39,267 nucleotides of DNA, taken from the IMG/VR virus record IMGVR_UViG_3300002143_000031, positions 1 to 39,267 of that record; one strand, written 5' to 3'. The stretch is from a virus. A model generated the notes under the pieces. It was not told the origin of the DNA. It made no database searches and saw only the letters and a program-made list of their open reading frames with translations. Positions 2,445 to 39,267 of this stretch are shown piece after piece. The position numbers were made by a program, and so were the translations under genes. The stretch's first letter is position 1, and the number at the start of each line of letters is the position of its first letter.

Positions 2445-3206
2445 ATGAGCATATTAGGATTAGGAAAGAATAAATCTCCATTTTTATACCTTGACGAATT
2501 CGTTAACCTTGATATAAATTATTCTTCGTTAAACAATGAGATTTCGAAAGGTATCGCATCATCTTACTGGAACAAGCGGTTTGTGTCAAGCGGAGTTCAT
2601 TCTGATTGGGCATCAAAGGAAATAACTCCTTATATAAGGACAATAAAAGAACATCTAACACCAGAGCAAATAGAAATATTTTCTTCATTTAAAACTACTG
2701 ATGAACGGTTAAAATTTATATCGTGTATAATACCAGTCCCTCACCCTTTTTGGATTATATATTTAAGAAATAATAAACGTATAGACCAAAGTGGAATTAA
2801 TAACAAATCAGTTGATGCAGATTGCCAGTGGACCGATAGTTCAAATAATTTCCCAATGTTAGTAAATTTAATAAAACAATTACCTTTTAAAGGAATTGGT
2901 CGTGTTATTATTTTTATGACGGAAGCTAACAATGAAACTGTCCCCCATTATGATGCGGGGTCTCAGAAACAGCGAGAAGAAAAGGGTAATGATGATTTTA
3001 TATGGTTTACTACATCAAATCCTTCTAAAAAAATATTCGTAATGGATGGTGAAACGAAAGAAAAGAGTTATTCTGATCCAACTAAAAAACTAGTGTGGTG
3101 GAACGAAATGGATTATCATGGAACTGATGCTGTTCCGTTTTTTAGCTTTTCTATAAGAATTGATGGTGAGTTTATTCCATCAATTAAGGAAAGTTTAATA
3201 AGTTGA
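2445..3206 (+). CDS. putative Fe(II)/2OG oxygenase, 253 aa
   Basis: The candidate triad is H168-Y-D170 (ETVPHYDAGS) and H225 (EMDYHGTDAV), with R238 in FSFSIRIDGEF in the 2-oxoglutarate position. The protein has about 150 residues before the catalytic core, more than the 170-190-residue paralogues around it, and does not share their NWY segment, so it is a different subgroup. It follows the previous gene after 16 nt on the same strand and has no obvious Shine-Dalgarno sequence. A second short minus-strand frame (3184-3318) overlaps its last 23 nt. Substrate unknown; the prolyl or asparaginyl hydroxylase-like fold is inferred. Confidence 0.6.
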   Translation: MSILGLGKNKSPFLYLDEFVNLDINYSSLNNEISKGIASSYWNKRFVSSGVHSDWASKEITPYIRTIKEHLTPEQIEIFSSFKTTDERLKFISCIIPVPHPFWIIYLRNNKRIDQSGINNKSVDADCQWTDSSNNFPMLVNLIKQLPFKGIGRVIIFMTEANNETVPHYDAGSQKQREEKGNDDFIWFTTSNPSKKIFVMDGETKEKSYSDPTKKLVWWNEMDYHGTDAVPFFSFSIRIDGEFIPSIKESLIS

Positions 3207-19520: not shown

Positions 19521-22500
19521 TTAAACATAAATGGCTATAGCCCTGAAGTCTTTACATTTTGGTACGAATGAACTATTTGTTGATTTTAAAACAATCTTGA
19601 ATGCCATACTTGAAAATAATTGACTTGTAGAAATATCATCACCTATTTGATCTATAGTATATTCAATTTCACGATATTTATTTGGATTTTCATCTACAAT
19701 AATAGCTTCATCTGGTTGATGTAATATCCAAGGTAATGTATCAAAATTACTATCAGAAGATGTAGATACTTTATAATATAATTCAATGTATGTAGAAGAT
19801 GGTCTATTAACATTTGCCAAAACTCGTATTTGATTTGCTTGACTATCAAGTGAAATGCGTCTAGTTATATATTTACATATAGCAGAACCACCATTGGGCT
19901 CGAGTTCAGATACAAAGTTTTCAACATAATTTGTATTATCTATATTAGAAGTATCTGAAGGGTTATCTATCAAATTAGCAATAGCAAATATTGACATCCT
20001 ATCCAAATCTATAATTGGAGAAAGGTAACTATTACCAACTAACGTAGCAGTTGCAGTAAATCCTGGCCCAGCGAGTTGATTGTCAGTACTTGGTACGCAT
20101 TGGATTCTGTTGAAATACGTATTTTGGTTAGCAATAACATTAAATGGTGATGACACTACATATGCTTGTTCAGAACCTGGCAAACTTGTTCCAGTGGCTG
20201 TAGAAGCAGTCCAATTTATATTAGTATCTGGAAGAACTAATTGTTGAGACGACAGTTGCATATTATTCATTAAAATATTTCTGTTGAAATATACAGCTGT
20301 ACCACCAACACGTCCATCAGAATTTGCAACAGTTTCTGAATTTACAATAAAGAAATCCTTTTCAACTCTTTCTATAAGCAATTCTTTATTAATTTCTACT
20401 ATTGGTATACCATTAACCACAAGACTAGCATTAGGTGCAACTCCACTAATAGTTACATATGAACCATTAAATAATCCATGATTCTTTGAATATACTCTTA
20501 ATTTTGTTGAACCATTTATAGTTTCAATAGAATCTGGTGCTAATTTCTTAGGTTGTACATCTACGTTATGGAATGCCGCGACACCTTGTGTAACAAAATT
20601 TGCACGATTCAATTTAAATTTGAGATCTTTCTCTTGTTCAGGTGTCCATGTAGATGCATTTTGAGATTTAAAGAATACGCCTAAATATGGTTGTTTAGAT
20701 ATACGATATGCTGGAGTAGATACATCAAATCCCCCCATCTCTGATACCCAAACTTTAGGTTTATCTGACATAGAAATAATCACAATTGCATATTCTACAC
20801 CTTGTTGTAGATGTACAGGTGCTTGAAATGTGAATTTAGTAGCAACTGAAGCATCTTCTGAAATATTGTTAACATTTAATATTTTTGTAACATTAGAAAA
20901 AGGCAAAATTGTCGTTGAAGGTTGGCCAACTAAAGTAGTTACTATATGTAAAGTTACAGGGATATTCTCATCAACTTGTTGAAAATATAAATCTATACTT
21001 GTTGCAAAGATACCTCCTGGCGCATCAACCATAAATGTTTGAGCAAGAGGTTCTCTCCATCCAATAACCCTTTGAGTACTAGACCTAACTATATCTACTA
21101 CAATTTGGTTTGAATTAAGAGCTGTACGATCAAACTTTGGAACTCTAGTGGATAGAATAACATTCTCTTGACTTTCTAAAAGTCCTGCAGCTTCATACAC
21201 AGCTTCAGCTGATGTTGTAGAATCTGATGTAATGTTATCGATAGAATCTGTTAATTGAAATACTCTAGACCCAGTTCTAAACCTTAATTGATCATTATTT
21301 GGAATAATGAAGAATCCAGATATAGTTCCAGATGCATTGGTAATTAATTCAGCAGAAGCTGCAAGCCCTATACTTGCTGGCCAGGATGTTTCATTGTTAA
21401 ATGTATATGCAGAAGTGTATGATGGATTAGCATTTGTAAAATCTGTAAAAGACCAAAACTGAGTAGTCTGAGTAGTGTATGGTGTGATATTTTTACCATC
21501 AAAGAAAGCATATACTTTAGTATTTGGTTTCATCATTTTTGCTTCAAATGATACTATCCTTGAACGCATAAATGGTATAAAATTAATTTCAACAACTCTA
21601 TCGCCAAGATTGTTAGTTATTGTATCTGGAACCACTTCAGTTCTTATTCCATCTCTACTTTGCGAACTAGTAGTTGTAGTTATAACATTAGTAGTTTCTA
21701 TTAGCTCTCTGAAGACCCAACTTGTACCACCCGAAGAACGATCTGTCGTAGAACCAGACCAATTAGTCTGCCATTCATTCCAAACAGTACCAGTAACACC
21801 AGTTGCATCCGCTAAATCTTTAAATGCATCATAGATACCTTCTTGGTCGATAATAACCTCTGGACGATTTTCAGTATCTTTCCAGTTGTCCGACTCTGGA
21901 GATAATTGCATATCTCCTCTCCATGTAAATACATTATAAGGATTTACAAATTCTGGGTATGATGCATATGGTTGTTCTATATAATCTACTTCATCATAAT
22001 CTAATGTTAGTAATGACCCAGTTTTCACTACATTGCTTGAAGAACTTGTAAACAATTTTAATCTAACTTCATTCTCAGTAAATTGCGGCCTCATGATTCC
22101 TAAAGATTTATCCATAGATACTGAATAATCTGGATGACTTGGATATCCAACATTATGCCCATAGAAATTATCTACAATAAACCCATTTTTAAAATGTTGT
22201 AAATCTATTTGGTAATTAGCAGTGTCTTTTTCAAGTAAAGATAAACTTGTATAGTATTCTAAATTTTTAAGACGACCTTCCAATCTACCGATATCACGCA
22301 TAGTATATCGTTTATTGTCAATCATTTTAGGCTGAATACTTTGTGGTCCAAATGTATATGATCCAACTCGTAATTCATATAACGTCATTGAATCTTGTAC
22401 ATCCCTTGGCATTTCAGGGTTTAATGCTGGAACACCTTCTACGATTCCAAATGTACCATATTTATCAACATAAACTTTATCAGTACGATTTAAATAATAA

Positions 22501-24845
22501 GTTAAATCAGTTTCAATAACCGATCCTGGTACAATCATATCTGGTGAAGACGAATATTGCCCAGTAAAGTTACTACCAGTAGAATCTTTAGTTGGCCTAA
22601 AATCAATAGCATCTCTCAATTGTATCAACCCTTTAGAAGAATTGAACGATGGTATTAGTGCATAATCTATAGAAGAATATGAATCTACTGAAAAATAGTC
22701 GCCTGAACTATGTTGAAAATAATTTACTTTTATGTTAATATTTCCAATTGGTGCAGATTTACCTTGTTTAAGAATAATTTTACCAATACCATAGAAATTG
22801 TCTCTTTGACCATTATCAAGTTCATACCTATCAGTTACATCTAAATATTCGCCTCCACCAATTGATACACCGATATCTTTAATTGAAGTTATAGAAAGTA
22901 TATCAGTAAAACCTAAACTAGAAAAATCTCCTGGTGATGTAGGTCCAACAAAATTATATATTTGTGCATTTGTTACTAAAGTTTTATTTTTCCTAGAAAG
23001 ATTTTTCTTGATAGGTGCTATGATATTTATCAATCCACCTGTAGCACTACTGGTATCTGAACTATCATTTGTTATCACAGCAGTAGATGTGCCATTACTA
23101 ACATTAAAAATTAAAGAAACATCAGTAATACCTAAAGGGTCTCCAGCATTAGTACCAGATGCAATTGTAATTATCCAGTCAGCGGGATTATAAGATTGAA
23201 AAACACCATCTGTAATTGTTATAGTAGTAGCATTGCCTGTATATGATTGAGAATAAAAAGTTTTCTTAACTACATATGTCGTATCGTTCTGACCATTTAC
23301 AATTAAACTTTTAACTGTATTAAATGGTAGTGGGAATACTAAACTATTATTATTAGTGTTAAACCTATCAGCGTTTGCCGAGTTTCCATTAATATCAGCT
23401 GTAGTTGCCTCAAATTGTGCAGCACCAGAATACGACTGAGTTATATTAGTAACAGACTCAAATGATTTAGTACTATTAATAATAATATCAAATAAATATA
23501 GTTTATAAAGTGTACCAGAAACCCAAGAAATACTTCTTGCCCTAGCTGTACCTATTTGGGCATTGGATACATCTTTCAATATCATTGTTGAATAGTTATC
23601 AATGTCTGGTAATGACGATGTAACATTAACATAAATGTAATTACCAACATTAGCAATAATATTAGCAAGGTTAAAATTAGCAGTGTCTCTAGCTTTAAGT
23701 AGCTCTATATATTTAATATCATCAATTGCAATTCTGTAACCATTTACATAAGCAACAGATTTCTCTAAACCAACTGCTAAATAAGATTCTCCATACACAA
23801 TCACTTCATTATCTGTATAATCTATTTCAGATAAACTAAATTTATCACGTAATTGAGCAACGGAATGTAACCCATTATTAGAACCGTTATCATACATTTC
23901 TCTAATGTTAATTAAAAATGGTCTGACACTATAATTTCCAGACTCTTCAAAAGTCCTTACCGCTAGAGTATCACCGAGTATAGAGTTTTCAGTACTAGCA
24001 ATTTTCTTAACAACACCATTTTCAATAACCGCTAATTGAATAATTTTACCATCTCTAACTTCTGTAAAAGAAAATGGAGCAGTTCCAATAGTTAATGAGA
24101 TTTGATATCTATGGGCTCCAGGTGCTGCAACATTACTAGTACCTATTGAATTATCTGTTAATGTAATATCTTCAGAATTAGTAACAATATTTTCTTCAAT
24201 GTTGTAAATAACCCTAATCGATGGATTAGTTGTATACTTTGATAGTATTAAATTTTCTGATGGGGAATATACGAAATTTCCATTAATAAAGAAAACTCCA
24301 GAATCTATATTAAACCTATACCCCTTACCAATAGGAGTAGAAGCAATTGGTAGCACTTTACCTTTCCTTGAAACTATAGCGTCTGAGTTGATCTCTTCAT
24401 TAGGCGCAAATGTTTTTGTAATTCCATTATTACCAGAATTAGTATATTTAACAAATAATGTTATAGGATCATCATCATTAGAAGGTTCAGCCCAAACTAC
24501 AGTAGCAGTAACCCCCGTAGTAACTCCAGTAATAGTCGTTCCTACGAACTCTTCATAATAATTATCAGTTATATTTAAAATTCCACCTATTACTGCATTG
24601 AACGTAGATTGGATTTTTACATAATCTAAACTACTATCAGTAGTTATATTCCCACCTATTACCGGAGTACCTTCTTTAAATACATATCTTCCATGGCGGT
24701 CAATCTGTGCTTGTAACGCAGTTTGCATTTGCGTAAGTTCTCGTGCTTGAACAGCAAATCCCGGCCTGAATAGAATTCTAAGATAATTCTTAGTTTCATC
24801 AAAGTCGTCGTAATAAGGCGCCGAATTATAGTATTTTAATGGCAT
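19521..24845 (-). CDS. large DUF4815-containing virion structural protein
   Basis: 1774 residues. The N-terminus (about residues 10-70, YYDDFDETKNYLRILFRPG...AVQARELTQMQTALQAQIDRHG) is the recognisable start of DUF4815 proteins found in baseplates of T4-like marine phages. The rest is beta-rich with a YLNRTDKVYVDKYG segment and a DIGRLEGRLKNLEYYTSLSLLE helix, and has no enzyme motif that I can see. It lies between gp8 and the fibre genes, so it probably forms a peripheral baseplate or fibre-attachment part. Only a weak purine stretch (AAGAGAAATATAACATG) precedes its start. Its length is within what I expect of this family, but its T4 counterpart is unclear. Confidence 0.75.
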   Translation of the reverse strand: MPLKYYNSAPYYDDFDETKNYLRILFRPGFAVQARELTQMQTALQAQIDRHGRYVFKEGTPVIGGNITTDSSLDYVKIQSTFNAVIGGILNITDNYYEEFVGTTITGVTTGVTATVVWAEPSNDDDPITLFVKYTNSGNNGITKTFAPNEEINSDAIVSRKGKVLPIASTPIGKGYRFNIDSGVFFINGNFVYSPSENLILSKYTTNPSIRVIYNIEENIVTNSEDITLTDNSIGTSNVAAPGAHRYQISLTIGTAPFSFTEVRDGKIIQLAVIENGVVKKIASTENSILGDTLAVRTFEESGNYSVRPFLINIREMYDNGSNNGLHSVAQLRDKFSLSEIDYTDNEVIVYGESYLAVGLEKSVAYVNGYRIAIDDIKYIELLKARDTANFNLANIIANVGNYIYVNVTSSLPDIDNYSTMILKDVSNAQIGTARARSISWVSGTLYKLYLFDIIINSTKSFESVTNITQSYSGAAQFEATTADINGNSANADRFNTNNNSLVFPLPFNTVKSLIVNGQNDTTYVVKKTFYSQSYTGNATTITITDGVFQSYNPADWIITIASGTNAGDPLGITDVSLIFNVSNGTSTAVITNDSSDTSSATGGLINIIAPIKKNLSRKNKTLVTNAQIYNFVGPTSPGDFSSLGFTDILSITSIKDIGVSIGGGEYLDVTDRYELDNGQRDNFYGIGKIILKQGKSAPIGNINIKVNYFQHSSGDYFSVDSYSSIDYALIPSFNSSKGLIQLRDAIDFRPTKDSTGSNFTGQYSSSPDMIVPGSVIETDLTYYLNRTDKVYVDKYGTFGIVEGVPALNPEMPRDVQDSMTLYELRVGSYTFGPQSIQPKMIDNKRYTMRDIGRLEGRLKNLEYYTSLSLLEKDTANYQIDLQHFKNGFIVDNFYGHNVGYPSHPDYSVSMDKSLGIMRPQFTENEVRLKLFTSSSSNVVKTGSLLTLDYDEVDYIEQPYASYPEFVNPYNVFTWRGDMQLSPESDNWKDTENRPEVIIDQEGIYDAFKDLADATGVTGTVWNEWQTNWSGSTTDRSSGGTSWVFRELIETTNVITTTTSSQSRDGIRTEVVPDTITNNLGDRVVEINFIPFMRSRIVSFEAKMMKPNTKVYAFFDGKNITPYTTQTTQFWSFTDFTNANPSYTSAYTFNNETSWPASIGLAASAELITNASGTISGFFIIPNNDQLRFRTGSRVFQLTDSIDNITSDSTTSAEAVYEAAGLLESQENVILSTRVPKFDRTALNSNQIVVDIVRSSTQRVIGWREPLAQTFMVDAPGGIFATSIDLYFQQVDENIPVTLHIVTTLVGQPSTTILPFSNVTKILNVNNISEDASVATKFTFQAPVHLQQGVEYAIVIISMSDKPKVWVSEMGGFDVSTPAYRISKQPYLGVFFKSQNASTWTPEQEKDLKFKLNRANFVTQGVAAFHNVDVQPKKLAPDSIETINGSTKLRVYSKNHGLFNGSYVTISGVAPNASLVVNGIPIVEINKELLIERVEKDFFIVNSETVANSDGRVGGTAVYFNRNILMNNMQLSSQQLVLPDTNINWTASTATGTSLPGSEQAYVVSSPFNVIANQNTYFNRIQCVPSTDNQLAGPGFTATATLVGNSYLSPIIDLDRMSIFAIANLIDNPSDTSNIDNTNYVENFVSELEPNGGSAICKYITRRISLDSQANQIRVLANVNRPSSTYIELYYKVSTSSDSNFDTLPWILHQPDEAIIVDENPNKYREIEYTIDQIGDDISTSQLFSSMAFKIVLKSTNSSFVPKCKDFRAIAIYV

Positions 24846-36217: not shown

Positions 36218-36880
36218 ATGTCATTACTAGGAAGTTCAATTGACGATCTAAAAGGTGTATTTAATAAACGCCAAGGTGTTTCACAACCTAATAGGTTTAT
36301 GGTGTACATGCAACCACCAGCATCTAGTTTATTAAACCTAGATATAAATACTGCAATTACTGGGGCATTATCTGGTAATTTAAATCTTGGTTCTTTTATA
36401 AATGATCCAAGAGATGTAACCCTATTATGTGAGTCATGTAGTTTACCAGGAAGACTTATTACAACTATAGATTTTCAAAATTATAAACAAGCAATAAAAA
36501 TACCTTATGGGTTTATTAATGAGGATGTTAGTTTTACATTCTTATTAACTGGCGACTATTACATGAAAAAAATGTTTGACTCATGGATGGCACTTGTATT
36601 TGATACCGAAAAATATGAATTACAATACAAAGATAAATATGTTGCAGATGTAAAAATTGCACAATTGAATAAAGACAATATACCAATATATACAATAGGA
36701 CTTCAGAAAGCATTTCCTATTTCAATTAACGCAATATCACTAGACAACAATTCTGATAATACAATTCAACGTGTCACAGTTACAATGACATATGAAAACT
36801 TTGTAGTTAATGGATTATTTGATTTAGCTAAAGGTATTGGTAAAGGTTTAATGAATTCAGTTACAAATACATTTAATTAA
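36218..36880 (+). CDS. tail tube family protein, gp19/gp54-like
   Basis: 220 residues. PRDVTLLCESCSLPGRLITTIDFQ (about residues 67-90), then IPYGFINEDVSFTFLLTGDYYMKKMFDSWM and YVADVKIAQLNKDNIPIYTIGLQKAFPISINAISLDN...NTIQRVTVTMTYENF is the gp19 tube fold: the CE...LPG strand, D...W helix and a final TVT.TY strand. By position (beside gp26/gp51, away from sheath gp18) it may be the tube initiator gp54 rather than the main tube protein gp19. AGGAATATAAGATG provides a Shine-Dalgarno sequence. The 75-nt gap that follows holds no gene; it ends in the gp26 ribosome-binding site. Confidence 0.78.
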   Translation: MSLLGSSIDDLKGVFNKRQGVSQPNRFMVYMQPPASSLLNLDINTAITGALSGNLNLGSFINDPRDVTLLCESCSLPGRLITTIDFQNYKQAIKIPYGFINEDVSFTFLLTGDYYMKKMFDSWMALVFDTEKYELQYKDKYVADVKIAQLNKDNIPIYTIGLQKAFPISINAISLDNNSDNTIQRVTVTMTYENFVVNGLFDLAKGIGKGLMNSVTNTFN

Positions 36881-36955: not shown

Positions 36956-37657
36956 ATGGCATTGCCAATTATTAGCGTACCGAAATATTCGGTTACTATC
37001 CCTTCTACTGGAATATCAGTAGTTTACAGACCGTACTTGGTTAAAGAAGAAAAGATTTTGATGATCGCAATGGAAAGCGAAGATCAAACCCAAATTTTAG
37101 GTGCAGTAAAAGAAATCATTGCAGCATGTACATTTGATAAAGTTAAAACTGAATCTTTAGCACTATTTGATTTAGAGTATATATTTTTAAAGTTGCGTTC
37201 CAAGTCTGTAGGTGAAGTATCTAAAATTGGATTAAAGTGTAAAGAATGTGAAACAAGCAATGAAATTCTTATAGACCTTGATACTATTGAAGTTCAAGGA
37301 TTAGATAATATCAATTATACTATAATGGTTAATGATAATATTGGTATGAAATTAAGGTATCCAACTGTTAAAGATGCATCTATATTATCAAAGTACACAG
37401 GGGTTGAAGCTGCAATGAAAACAATGATTGCATGTATTGAAAATATATTTGATGAGAATAAAGTATATCCTGCTAAAGATAGTACACCAAAAGAATTAGA
37501 ACAATTTATAGATTCATTAAATAGTGAACAATTTAAAAAGTTGCAAGTTTTCTTTGAAGGAATGCCAGTCCTAAGTCATAAAGTTGGTTATACTTGTAGT
37601 AAATGTTCTACCGTTAATGAATTAGTTATTAAAGGCCTAGCAAATTTTTTCGGATAG
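36956..37657 (+). CDS. 26: baseplate hub assembly protein gp26 (probable tail chaperone)
   Basis: 233 residues. It has the T4 baseplate gp26 pattern: an N-terminal KYSVTIPSTGISVVYRPYLVKEEKILMIAMES, two Cys pairs (C95-x2-C98 in CKECET; C214-x2-C217 in CSKCST) that can hold a zinc, and GMKLRYPTVKDASIL. Ends GLANFFG. gp26 is required for hub assembly and not abundant in virions. Its last codons form the slippery run A AAT TTT TTC just before the TAG, and the -1 frame continues into gp51-like sequence. The tape-measure-like gene follows, so the pair occupies the standard tail-chaperone position. Confidence 0.88.
   Translation: MALPIISVPKYSVTIPSTGISVVYRPYLVKEEKILMIAMESEDQTQILGAVKEIIAACTFDKVKTESLALFDLEYIFLKLRSKSVGEVSKIGLKCKECETSNEILIDLDTIEVQGLDNINYTIMVNDNIGMKLRYPTVKDASILSKYTGVEAAMKTMIACIENIFDENKVYPAKDSTPKELEQFIDSLNSEQFKKLQVFFEGMPVLSHKVGYTCSKCSTVNELVIKGLANFFG
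37642..37651 (+). promoter_or_regulatory. programmed -1 frameshift site
   Basis: In the gp26 frame the sequence reads GCA AAT TTT TTC GGA TAG. It contains two overlapping canonical X-XXY-YYZ heptamers (A AAT TTT and T TTT TTC), directly before the stop. AAAGG at 37631-37635, 9 nt upstream, resembles the stimulatory Shine-Dalgarno-like element of dnaX. An imperfect stem (CATGATAG at 37666-37673 with CTATGATG at 37703-37710) follows. Slippage adds 60 residues for a 292-residue gp26-gp51 fusion. Confidence 0.68.
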
Positions 37658-37833
37658 GCCTCTCTCATGATAGTTTAGTTAATCATTATAAGACTAACTT
37701 TGCTATGATGCAACATCATAAATATTCGTTGTCTGAACTTGAAACTATGATTCCTTGGGAGAGGGAGATTTATATTGCACAGTTAATTGCTTACCTTAAA
37801 GAAGAAGAAGAACGTATAAAAACTAATAAATAG
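37651..37833 (+). CDS. 51: gp51-like baseplate hub assembly domain, probably made by -1 frameshifting from gp26
   Basis: The -1 frame relative to gp26 reads RIGLSHDSLVNHYKTNFAMM, then HHKYSLSELETMIPWERE and IYIAQLIAYLKEEEERIKTN before TAG. The MIPWERE...LKEEEER segment is characteristic of small gp51-like hub assembly proteins in marine T4-like phages. The coding character extends upstream of the only ATG (37705), which has no Shine-Dalgarno sequence and would give just 42 residues. So expression as a gp26 fusion is the best explanation. The frame is open from 37633. T4 gp51 is larger and separately encoded. Confidence 0.7.
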   Translation, partial: RIGLSHDSLVNHYKTNFAMMQHHKYSLSELETMIPWEREIYIAQLIAYLKEEEERIKTNK

Positions 37834-37857: not shown

Positions 37858-39267
37858 ATGGCTACAGATAAAGACAATCTTCAAGATATAATCTTAGAGA
37901 TGATGCAAAGCAATGAGCATATGATAAAGTTAGATAAATCTGCAATCTTATCTAATAGTTACCTTAATGATATTAATGCTAATGCATGGTCTAGCTTTGA
38001 ACAATTGAATACTATTGCTGAAATATTATCTAACAAATCTGAAATAGGATCTGAAATAGATAAAGAAAACAATCAATCTGATGATACTGATATTTTTAAA
38101 TCAATACAATTAAATACATTTAATACATTTGAACAATTAAGTAAATTGATTCAAATAATGTCTGGGAAAACTGGTAAAGATCTTGAGGATGCACTAGAAC
38201 AGAAAAATATGCAGGAGAGAATGCTTAAAGCATTATCAAAAGGTGGTGGTGATGACAAAGATGGTAAAAGTACTAAAGCAAAAGGCGGCAAGGGAGGACT
38301 TGGAATATTTGGGATGATTGGTTCTGCTTTAATGACAATGTTTAGTTTTATATTTGAACCAAAAAGTATACTTTCATTTGCTAAAACTATAGCTGGAAAT
38401 TTACTAAAGTTATTTGGAAAATTCAGTTGGATTTTACTAATAGCAGGTTTATTCAATGGTATTACAGATGGTTGGAATGAATGGAAAAAAACTGGTAACC
38501 TTAAAGAAGCTTTAATAAAAGGCCTTACTGGATTTTTAAAAGTACTATCATTCGGACTTATTGATGAGAAAACAGTAAGAGAATCTCTTGATAAAATAAC
38601 CAAATGGTTTGATGAGATATGGATAAGTGTAAAGAATTTCTTTAGCGATCCTAAGGCAGCTATTTCTAAATGGTGGGCTGAGACAACAGGTGAGGGTGGT
38701 TTATTAACTACTATATTTGCATCATTAGAATCTGCATGGGTATGGATTAAAGAAACATTCTCAGATTTTAAAGAATCTCTAACTAAGAAATGGCAAGAAC
38801 TTATTCAAGATCCTGATGGTATAGTTGGTAAAATATTTTCAGTATTTAAAGGTGTAAAAGAATGGATTGAATTAATTTTCAAAAATCCTATTGAAGGTTT
38901 AACTGTACTTTGGAACAATTTATTTCAAAAAGGTGGGTTTTATGATTTATTGTTCGTTCCAATAAATGCTGTAATTGACTGGGTCGGTAAAAAGTTTGGA
39001 TGGATAGATAAAGATGCACCAGAGTTTAATTTAGGTGATATACTTCGAGACTGGTTTGATTCGATGTTAGAATGGTTAGCTAAAAAGACTGATTTTGTTA
39101 TTCCAGGGTCTGGTAATAATCTACGAAAATTGAAATTTAATCCTGGCCCAATGCCGAACGCAGATGAACAAGTTCTAGCTATGAATAAGTCTGCTACTGA
39201 AAGTTATAACGCTTACAACGAGTTTTCTAGTTTTAACGAAACCGGATCATCACCTAATACAACATCA
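37858..39267 (+). CDS. tape-measure-like / gp29-type tail protein (partial, runs off right edge)
   Basis: 470 codons are open to the window edge without a stop. AAAAGGAAAATAAATG provides the start. The N-terminus is helical (ILEMMQSNEHMIKLDK..., NTFNTFEQLSKLIQIMSG), followed by a Lys/Gly linker (GGGDDKDGKSTKAKGGKGG, about 144-162) and hydrophobic segments (LGIFGMIGSALMTMFSFIF; KFSWILLIAGLFNGITD), then amphipathic Trp/Phe-rich repeats (WFDEIWISVKNFFSD, WVWIKETFSDFKE, WIELIFKNPIEGL). This composition, and its position right after gp26/gp51, fit a tail-length/tape-measure protein. The T4 functional counterpart would be gp29, but I cannot prove homology. Confidence 0.65.
   Translation, partial: MATDKDNLQDIILEMMQSNEHMIKLDKSAILSNSYLNDINANAWSSFEQLNTIAEILSNKSEIGSEIDKENNQSDDTDIFKSIQLNTFNTFEQLSKLIQIMSGKTGKDLEDALEQKNMQERMLKALSKGGGDDKDGKSTKAKGGKGGLGIFGMIGSALMTMFSFIFEPKSILSFAKTIAGNLLKLFGKFSWILLIAGLFNGITDGWNEWKKTGNLKEALIKGLTGFLKVLSFGLIDEKTVRESLDKITKWFDEIWISVKNFFSDPKAAISKWWAETTGEGGLLTTIFASLESAWVWIKETFSDFKESLTKKWQELIQDPDGIVGKIFSVFKGVKEWIELIFKNPIEGLTVLWNNLFQKGGFYDLLFVPINAVIDWVGKKFGWIDKDAPEFNLGDILRDWFDSMLEWLAKKTDFVIPGSGNNLRKLKFNPGPMPNADEQVLAMNKSATESYNAYNEFSSFNETGSSPNTTS

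Follow-up and report, generated by a model that had tools for sequence, protein, structure and literature searches.

The window, by which we mean the whole 39,267-nt stretch analyzed here, corresponds to positions 1-39,267 of the IMG/VR record IMGVR_UViG_3300002143_000031 and represents a marine T4-like bacterial virus. A gene for a tail-tube-like protein (36218..36880, plus strand; phrog_45, E 4.1e-37) is found directly upstream of gp26 (36956..37657, plus strand), which codes in the zero frame for a protein of 233 residues, the putative short form of a tail-assembly chaperone. The gp26 product matched PF12322 (T4_baseplate) with an E of 9.7e-63 and 212 bits, against a curated cut-off of 24.5, and phrog_150 with an E of 9.9e-69. 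Its start codon, ATG 36956, is preceded by an AGGAG Shine-Dalgarno sequence with an anti-SD energy of -7.3. Directly downstream of the gp26/gp51 region, a tape-measure-like gene with its own Shine-Dalgarno sequence begins at 37858 and runs off the window (37858..39267, plus strand). The gene order is tail tube, gp26, gp51 and tape measure, the latter assigned from a weak match (phrog_991, E 1.9e-5), and it agrees with the initial annotation, in which the gp26/gp51 pair directly precedes a tape-measure-like gene. Elsewhere in the window, beside the baseplate wedge genes, the minus strand codes for a 1774-residue protein (19521-24845) that matches phrog_358, a family of unknown function, with 1480 bits.

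The terminal codons of gp26 read GCA AAT TTT TTC GGA TAG, the zero-frame stop being the TAG at 37655..37657 (plus strand). They contain the heptamer T TTT TTC (37645..37651, plus strand), on which tandem Phe tRNAs could slip by -1. At -1, positions 37633 to 37830 form an open frame with a stop codon at 37831-37833, and residues 5-65 of this frame matched phrog_634 ("baseplate hub assembly catalyst", gp51; E 6.1e-28). The frame also matched positions 230-274 of phrog_150, that is, right after the end of gp26 in the profile. A slip on the heptamer would thus add a gp51-like C-terminal extension of 60 residues plus stop (37651..37833, plus strand), and the predicted fusion has 232 + 60 = 292 residues. 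The open -1 frame, its gp51-like character and a 292-residue fusion had been proposed in the initial annotation; both the coordinates and the length held on rechecking. We conclude that gp26 and "gp51" are very probably a single tail-assembly chaperone gene from which two products are made by programmed -1 frameshifting.

An alignment of the gp26-gp51 junctions had been suggested as a check on this proposal. Relatives were gathered as IMG/VR loci, with gp26 or gp51 of related phages as the queries, together with named phage genomes. Both parts were placed by tblastn without assuming a frame, and were found together in 454 loci, representing 290 distinct junctions. Without exception, these 454 loci contained T TTT TTN and encoded gp51 at -1 relative to gp26; elsewhere in gp26, an in-frame T TTT TTN occurred 7 times in 17,548 other codons. 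The codon preceding the run was AGT in 142 of the 290 junctions, AAT in 75, TCT in 41, GAT in 25, GCT in 6 and ACT in 1, so that the amino acid varied while the third base was always T. The XXY codon was always TTT, and YYZ was TTC, TTT, TTA or TTG. That the preceding codon varies yet always ends in T, together with the invariance of XXY, indicates that it is the nucleotides that are fixed and not the amino acids. The initial annotation had noted a second, overlapping heptamer, A AAT TTT (37642-37648). Both heptamers are present in the window, but only T TTT TTC is conserved, and A AAT TTT was dropped as a slip site, its codon being AGT in about half of the junctions. The gp26 stop was found one codon past YYZ in 269 of the 290 junctions and eight codons past it in 6, with a range of 0-8 further codons; in a few phages, Pelagibacter phage Mosig among them, the stop lies eight codons further downstream with slip site and switch point both retained. 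The same junction was found in Vibrio phages PG216 and nt-1, Aeromonas phage AS-zj, Sinorhizobium phage phiM12, Rhizobium phages P10VF and N34, Agrobacterium phages Atu_ph04 and OLIVR5, Stenotrophomonas phage Marzo and Pseudomonas phage Milchi. The slippery run and the -1 frame were thus shared by every marine relative sampled, and the run also by the relatives from Vibrio, Aeromonas and Rhizobium.

As a separate observation, a 13-sequence search with the gp51 profile detected -1-frame extensions of gp26 in Salmonella phage SP1 (Ackermannviridae; locus L178, 2290-2465; E 2e-7) and in Vibrio phage D510 (locus L181, 2055-2255; E 1e-4). Both are devoid of the T TTT TTN heptamer, and D510 has a TAATG overlap.

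An AAAGG sequence is located at 37631..37635 (plus strand), 9 nt before the heptamer, where it had been noticed initially. In the window its pairing with the anti-SD is only moderate (-3.3). The class of element is strongly enriched among relatives: an 8-mer starting at -15 and able to pair strongly with the anti-SD was found in 68% of 159 representatives, against a background of 2.9%. Moreover, the Glu codon at this site was GAG in a ratio of 48:24, compared to 826:2148 elsewhere, and AGA was also favored synonymously.

Folding z-scores were most extreme right after the heptamer, at -2.7 in 120-nt windows and -1.6 in 50-nt windows, as compared to about -0.6 and -0.3, respectively, upstream of it. 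The imperfect stem 15-60 nt downstream that had been described initially did not survive, since its z-score in the window (-0.97) was no better than that of shuffled sequences. A different, long-range stem is formed by CCTCTCTCA (37659..37667, plus strand), which follows the heptamer after a 7-nt spacer, inside the 5-9 nt expected of a structure that promotes -1 frameshifting, and TGGGAGAGG (37756..37764, plus strand), which comprises the codons for WER. Its loop is of 88 nt and its z-score in the window is -2.18. One of its pairs joins the third base of a Leu codon (CTC/CTT) to the third base of a Glu codon (GAG/GAA), both synonymous sites. This pair, L3-E36, ranked first among 304 pairs of synonymous columns (p 3e-10), with direct counts of 16 for C-G and 12 for U-A. 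Its odds ratio climbed to 70 when the Arg codon was AGG, because AGG lets the helix close; in sequences with CGN Arg codons the full stem is impossible. Independent contrasts on the gp26 tree gave 12 concordant and 0 discordant changes (p 0.0005). The long-range stem in the window phage is thus well supported, and we infer that it acts as a stimulator of frameshifting. In other lineages, local hairpins take the place of the long-range stem; one of these is GGACTATC-TCAC-GATAGTCT, in the group with T TTT TTA. RNAalifold predicted no consensus structure for a mixed set of 40 sequences, probably because the stimulator differs by lineage and the long loop is costly, and a search of Rfam gave no match above chance.

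Inspection by eye also revealed strong local hairpins of unrelated sequence immediately after the slip site of phages S-PM2, P-SSM2 and MA01 (loci L004, L184 and L173); that of S-PM2, at about 3013-3050, is GTTCTATAATAAT-CTCGAAA-ATTATTATAGAAC. Within the long loop of the window stem, the conserved MMQHH codons (37704-37719), ATGATGCAACATCAT, are self-complementary and could form a hairpin, ATGATG-CAA-CATCAT. The third bases of the His codons vary in relatives, and selection for this inner hairpin is therefore not claimed.

An alternative source of the long form would be slippage during transcription of the T run. Polymerase slippage on T runs is known in principle, and the junctions have 6-8 consecutive T. 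The run in the window, however, has six T only, and across junctions the register of the heptamer is fixed and the run is not lengthened. Furthermore, a Shine-Dalgarno-like element and a structure at a spacing of 6-8 nt are features of ribosomal frameshifting that have no obvious role in polymerase slippage. We therefore regard transcriptional slippage as a very improbable source of the long form.

That gp51 is instead a separate gene, translated from ATG 37705 or by re-initiation, with the T run a coincidence of Phe-Phe coding, would agree with the separate gp51 genes listed by databases in many cyanophages and with the TGATG or TAATG overlaps seen in some relatives. ATG 37705 is the first in the -1 frame of the window and, as stated in the initial annotation, it is not preceded by a Shine-Dalgarno sequence, its best anti-SD energy being -0.4, compared to -7.3 at the gp26 start. 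In 222 of the 290 junctions, the first -1-frame ATG is found 18 or 19 residues past the slip site, within the conserved protein, and 9 junctions have no ATG at all in this frame. Shine-Dalgarno-like pairing was detected at 60% of gp26 starts, 43% of the starts of the next gene and 8% of random positions, but at 1% of the first -1-frame ATGs, so that relatives with a separate gp51 start and its own Shine-Dalgarno sequence, which would have spoken against a fusion, did not emerge as a class. Upstream of the first ATG, 49% of the differences between sequences fell at third positions of the -1 frame, which indicates that this stretch is translated in that frame. This signature, together with the phrog_634 match from residue 5, bears out the view that gp51-like coding begins at the slip site, ahead of ATG 37705. 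A separate gp51 start was dropped as a candidate, the first ATG having no Shine-Dalgarno sequence. With T TTT TTN fixed at the nucleotide level, and with the homologous long form being a single polypeptide in T4, phiAS4 and POP12, we regard a separate gp51 gene as very improbable.

Beside the conserved slip site, an ATG in the -1 frame overlaps the gp26 stop (TGATG or TAATG) at loci L166-L169, L176, L177 and L179, which are from Vibrio, Sinorhizobium (including phiM12), Rhizobium, Agrobacterium and Stenotrophomonas phages. Because of this overlap, free gp51 may be produced in these phages by re-initiation, in addition to the fusion.

An AlphaFold2 model of gp26 (pLDDT 89.7) was compared to the PDB with VIA-align 2, and the three best entries were 3FGX (Z 7.8), 2OB9 (Z 7.2) and 3KLU (Z 6.8), all covering gp26 residues 1-95; the next entry, at Z 2.7, was unrelated. 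2OB9 is the HK97 tail-assembly chaperone and 3KLU is YqbN; 3FGX and YqbN we take to be prophage relatives of the chaperone. The PDB list of Foldseek for the same model held no significant match (2OB9, E 0.7), and a sequence-profile search of the PDB found no relative. The model thus gives moderate support, with Z below 8, to a tail-assembly-chaperone fold for the N-terminal domain of gp26. The gene order and the arrangement of frames agree with the chaperone assignment. The gene order and the HK97-like chaperone fold together fit the lambda G/GT class, in line with the initial suggestion that gp26 and gp51 of T4-like phages are chaperones of this type.

Most ribosomes would stop at TAG 37655, giving the 233-residue short form. 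A minority would slip by -1 on T TTT TTC and read on to 37833, giving the 292-residue long form, with the downstream stem holding the slipping ribosomes and the upstream Shine-Dalgarno-like element assisting. From the sequence we infer both that slippage occurs in the window phage and that its rate would be such a minor one. If the two forms work like lambda gpG and gpGT, the domain common to both may coat the tape measure protein, which the extension of the long form may link to the tail tube subunits.

In T4, genes 26 and 51 are separate and divergently oriented. T4 gp26 matched the short-form profile to its end, and gene 26 terminates in GAG TTC TTT GAG, without a slip site. The gp51 proteins of T4, phiAS4 and POP12 carry the C-terminal extension in frame, whereas the match of their N-terminal parts to the short form is weak. 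T4 gp26 and gp51, which are baseplate hub assembly chaperones, are thus homologous to the products of the window locus, gp26 corresponding to the short form and gp51 to a short-form-like domain with the same extension. T4 itself does not appear to use a frameshift: its gene 26 is short and its gene 51 is long and read in a single frame, so that it makes by two genes what the window phage would make from one gene by frameshifting. The contrast is a naturally occurring case in which one protein pair would be obtained by recoding in one phage and from two genes in the other.

Vladimirov, Gautam and Davidson (Virology 2022, 566:9-15) reportedly established which proteins of T4-like phages are the tail-assembly chaperones. 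In a passage of PMC10885494, Vladimirov et al. are cited for T4-like phages in which one short copy and one longer, fused copy replace frameshifting, and in a passage of PMC12846349 poly-T slip signals of T4-like phages are attributed to the same authors. As cited in these passages, that work indicates that the equivalence of gp26/gp51 to G/GT was already known, and probably also the frameshift in the marine T4-like branch. The present analysis adds that the junction is conserved without exception, that an alternative start is missing, and that the RNA structure covaries and switches between lineages; of these, the covarying stimulators may be new. Taken together, we think it reasonably likely that marine T4-like phages share a conserved three-part signal that drives the chaperone frameshift, whose stimulator has become, by lineage, either a long-range stem with the codons of the conserved PWER motif as its second arm or local hairpins of unrelated sequence, and that the T4 branch, with genes 26 and 51 for the two forms, has no need of recoding. 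Abundant marine T4-like phages now fall firmly within the class with frameshifted tail chaperones, and the gp51 "genes" annotated in hundreds of cyanophage records are indicated to be the 3' part of gp26. In the GenBank records of S-WAM1 (L002), ACG-2014h (L005) and ACG-2014e (L006), the gp51 frame is unannotated and appears as an intergenic gap, and these gaps are likewise indicated to be the 3' part of gp26. The covarying stem is a specific element open to mutation.

A chaperone-gene frameshift with a GTTTTT motif is described for the Vandenendeviridae and Andersonviridae in a section of PMC12846349. As portrayed there, these phages share with the window lineage a conserved, open -1 frame that follows a T run where the chaperone gene ends, before the tape measure gene; they belong to other phage families, and a covarying RNA stimulator is not described in the section on the chaperone frameshift. 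The window locus also resembles lambda gpG/gpGT, P2 E/E+E' and HK97 gp13/14, each with a short form and a long form made by -1 frameshifting, and with the tail tube gene on one side and the tape measure gene on the other. Unlike these systems, it belongs to a T4-like myovirus and to the PF12322 family, has a larger N-terminal form of 233 residues, and has an RNA stem with an 88-nt loop. The P2 frameshift presumably also takes place on a T-rich heptamer. The -1 signal of Escherichia coli dnaX consists of an internal Shine-Dalgarno sequence, a slippery heptamer and a downstream stem, and the window lineage has the same three-part layout. However, dnaX uses A AAA AAG and a compact stem-loop, whereas the window lineage has a T run and a long-range stem.
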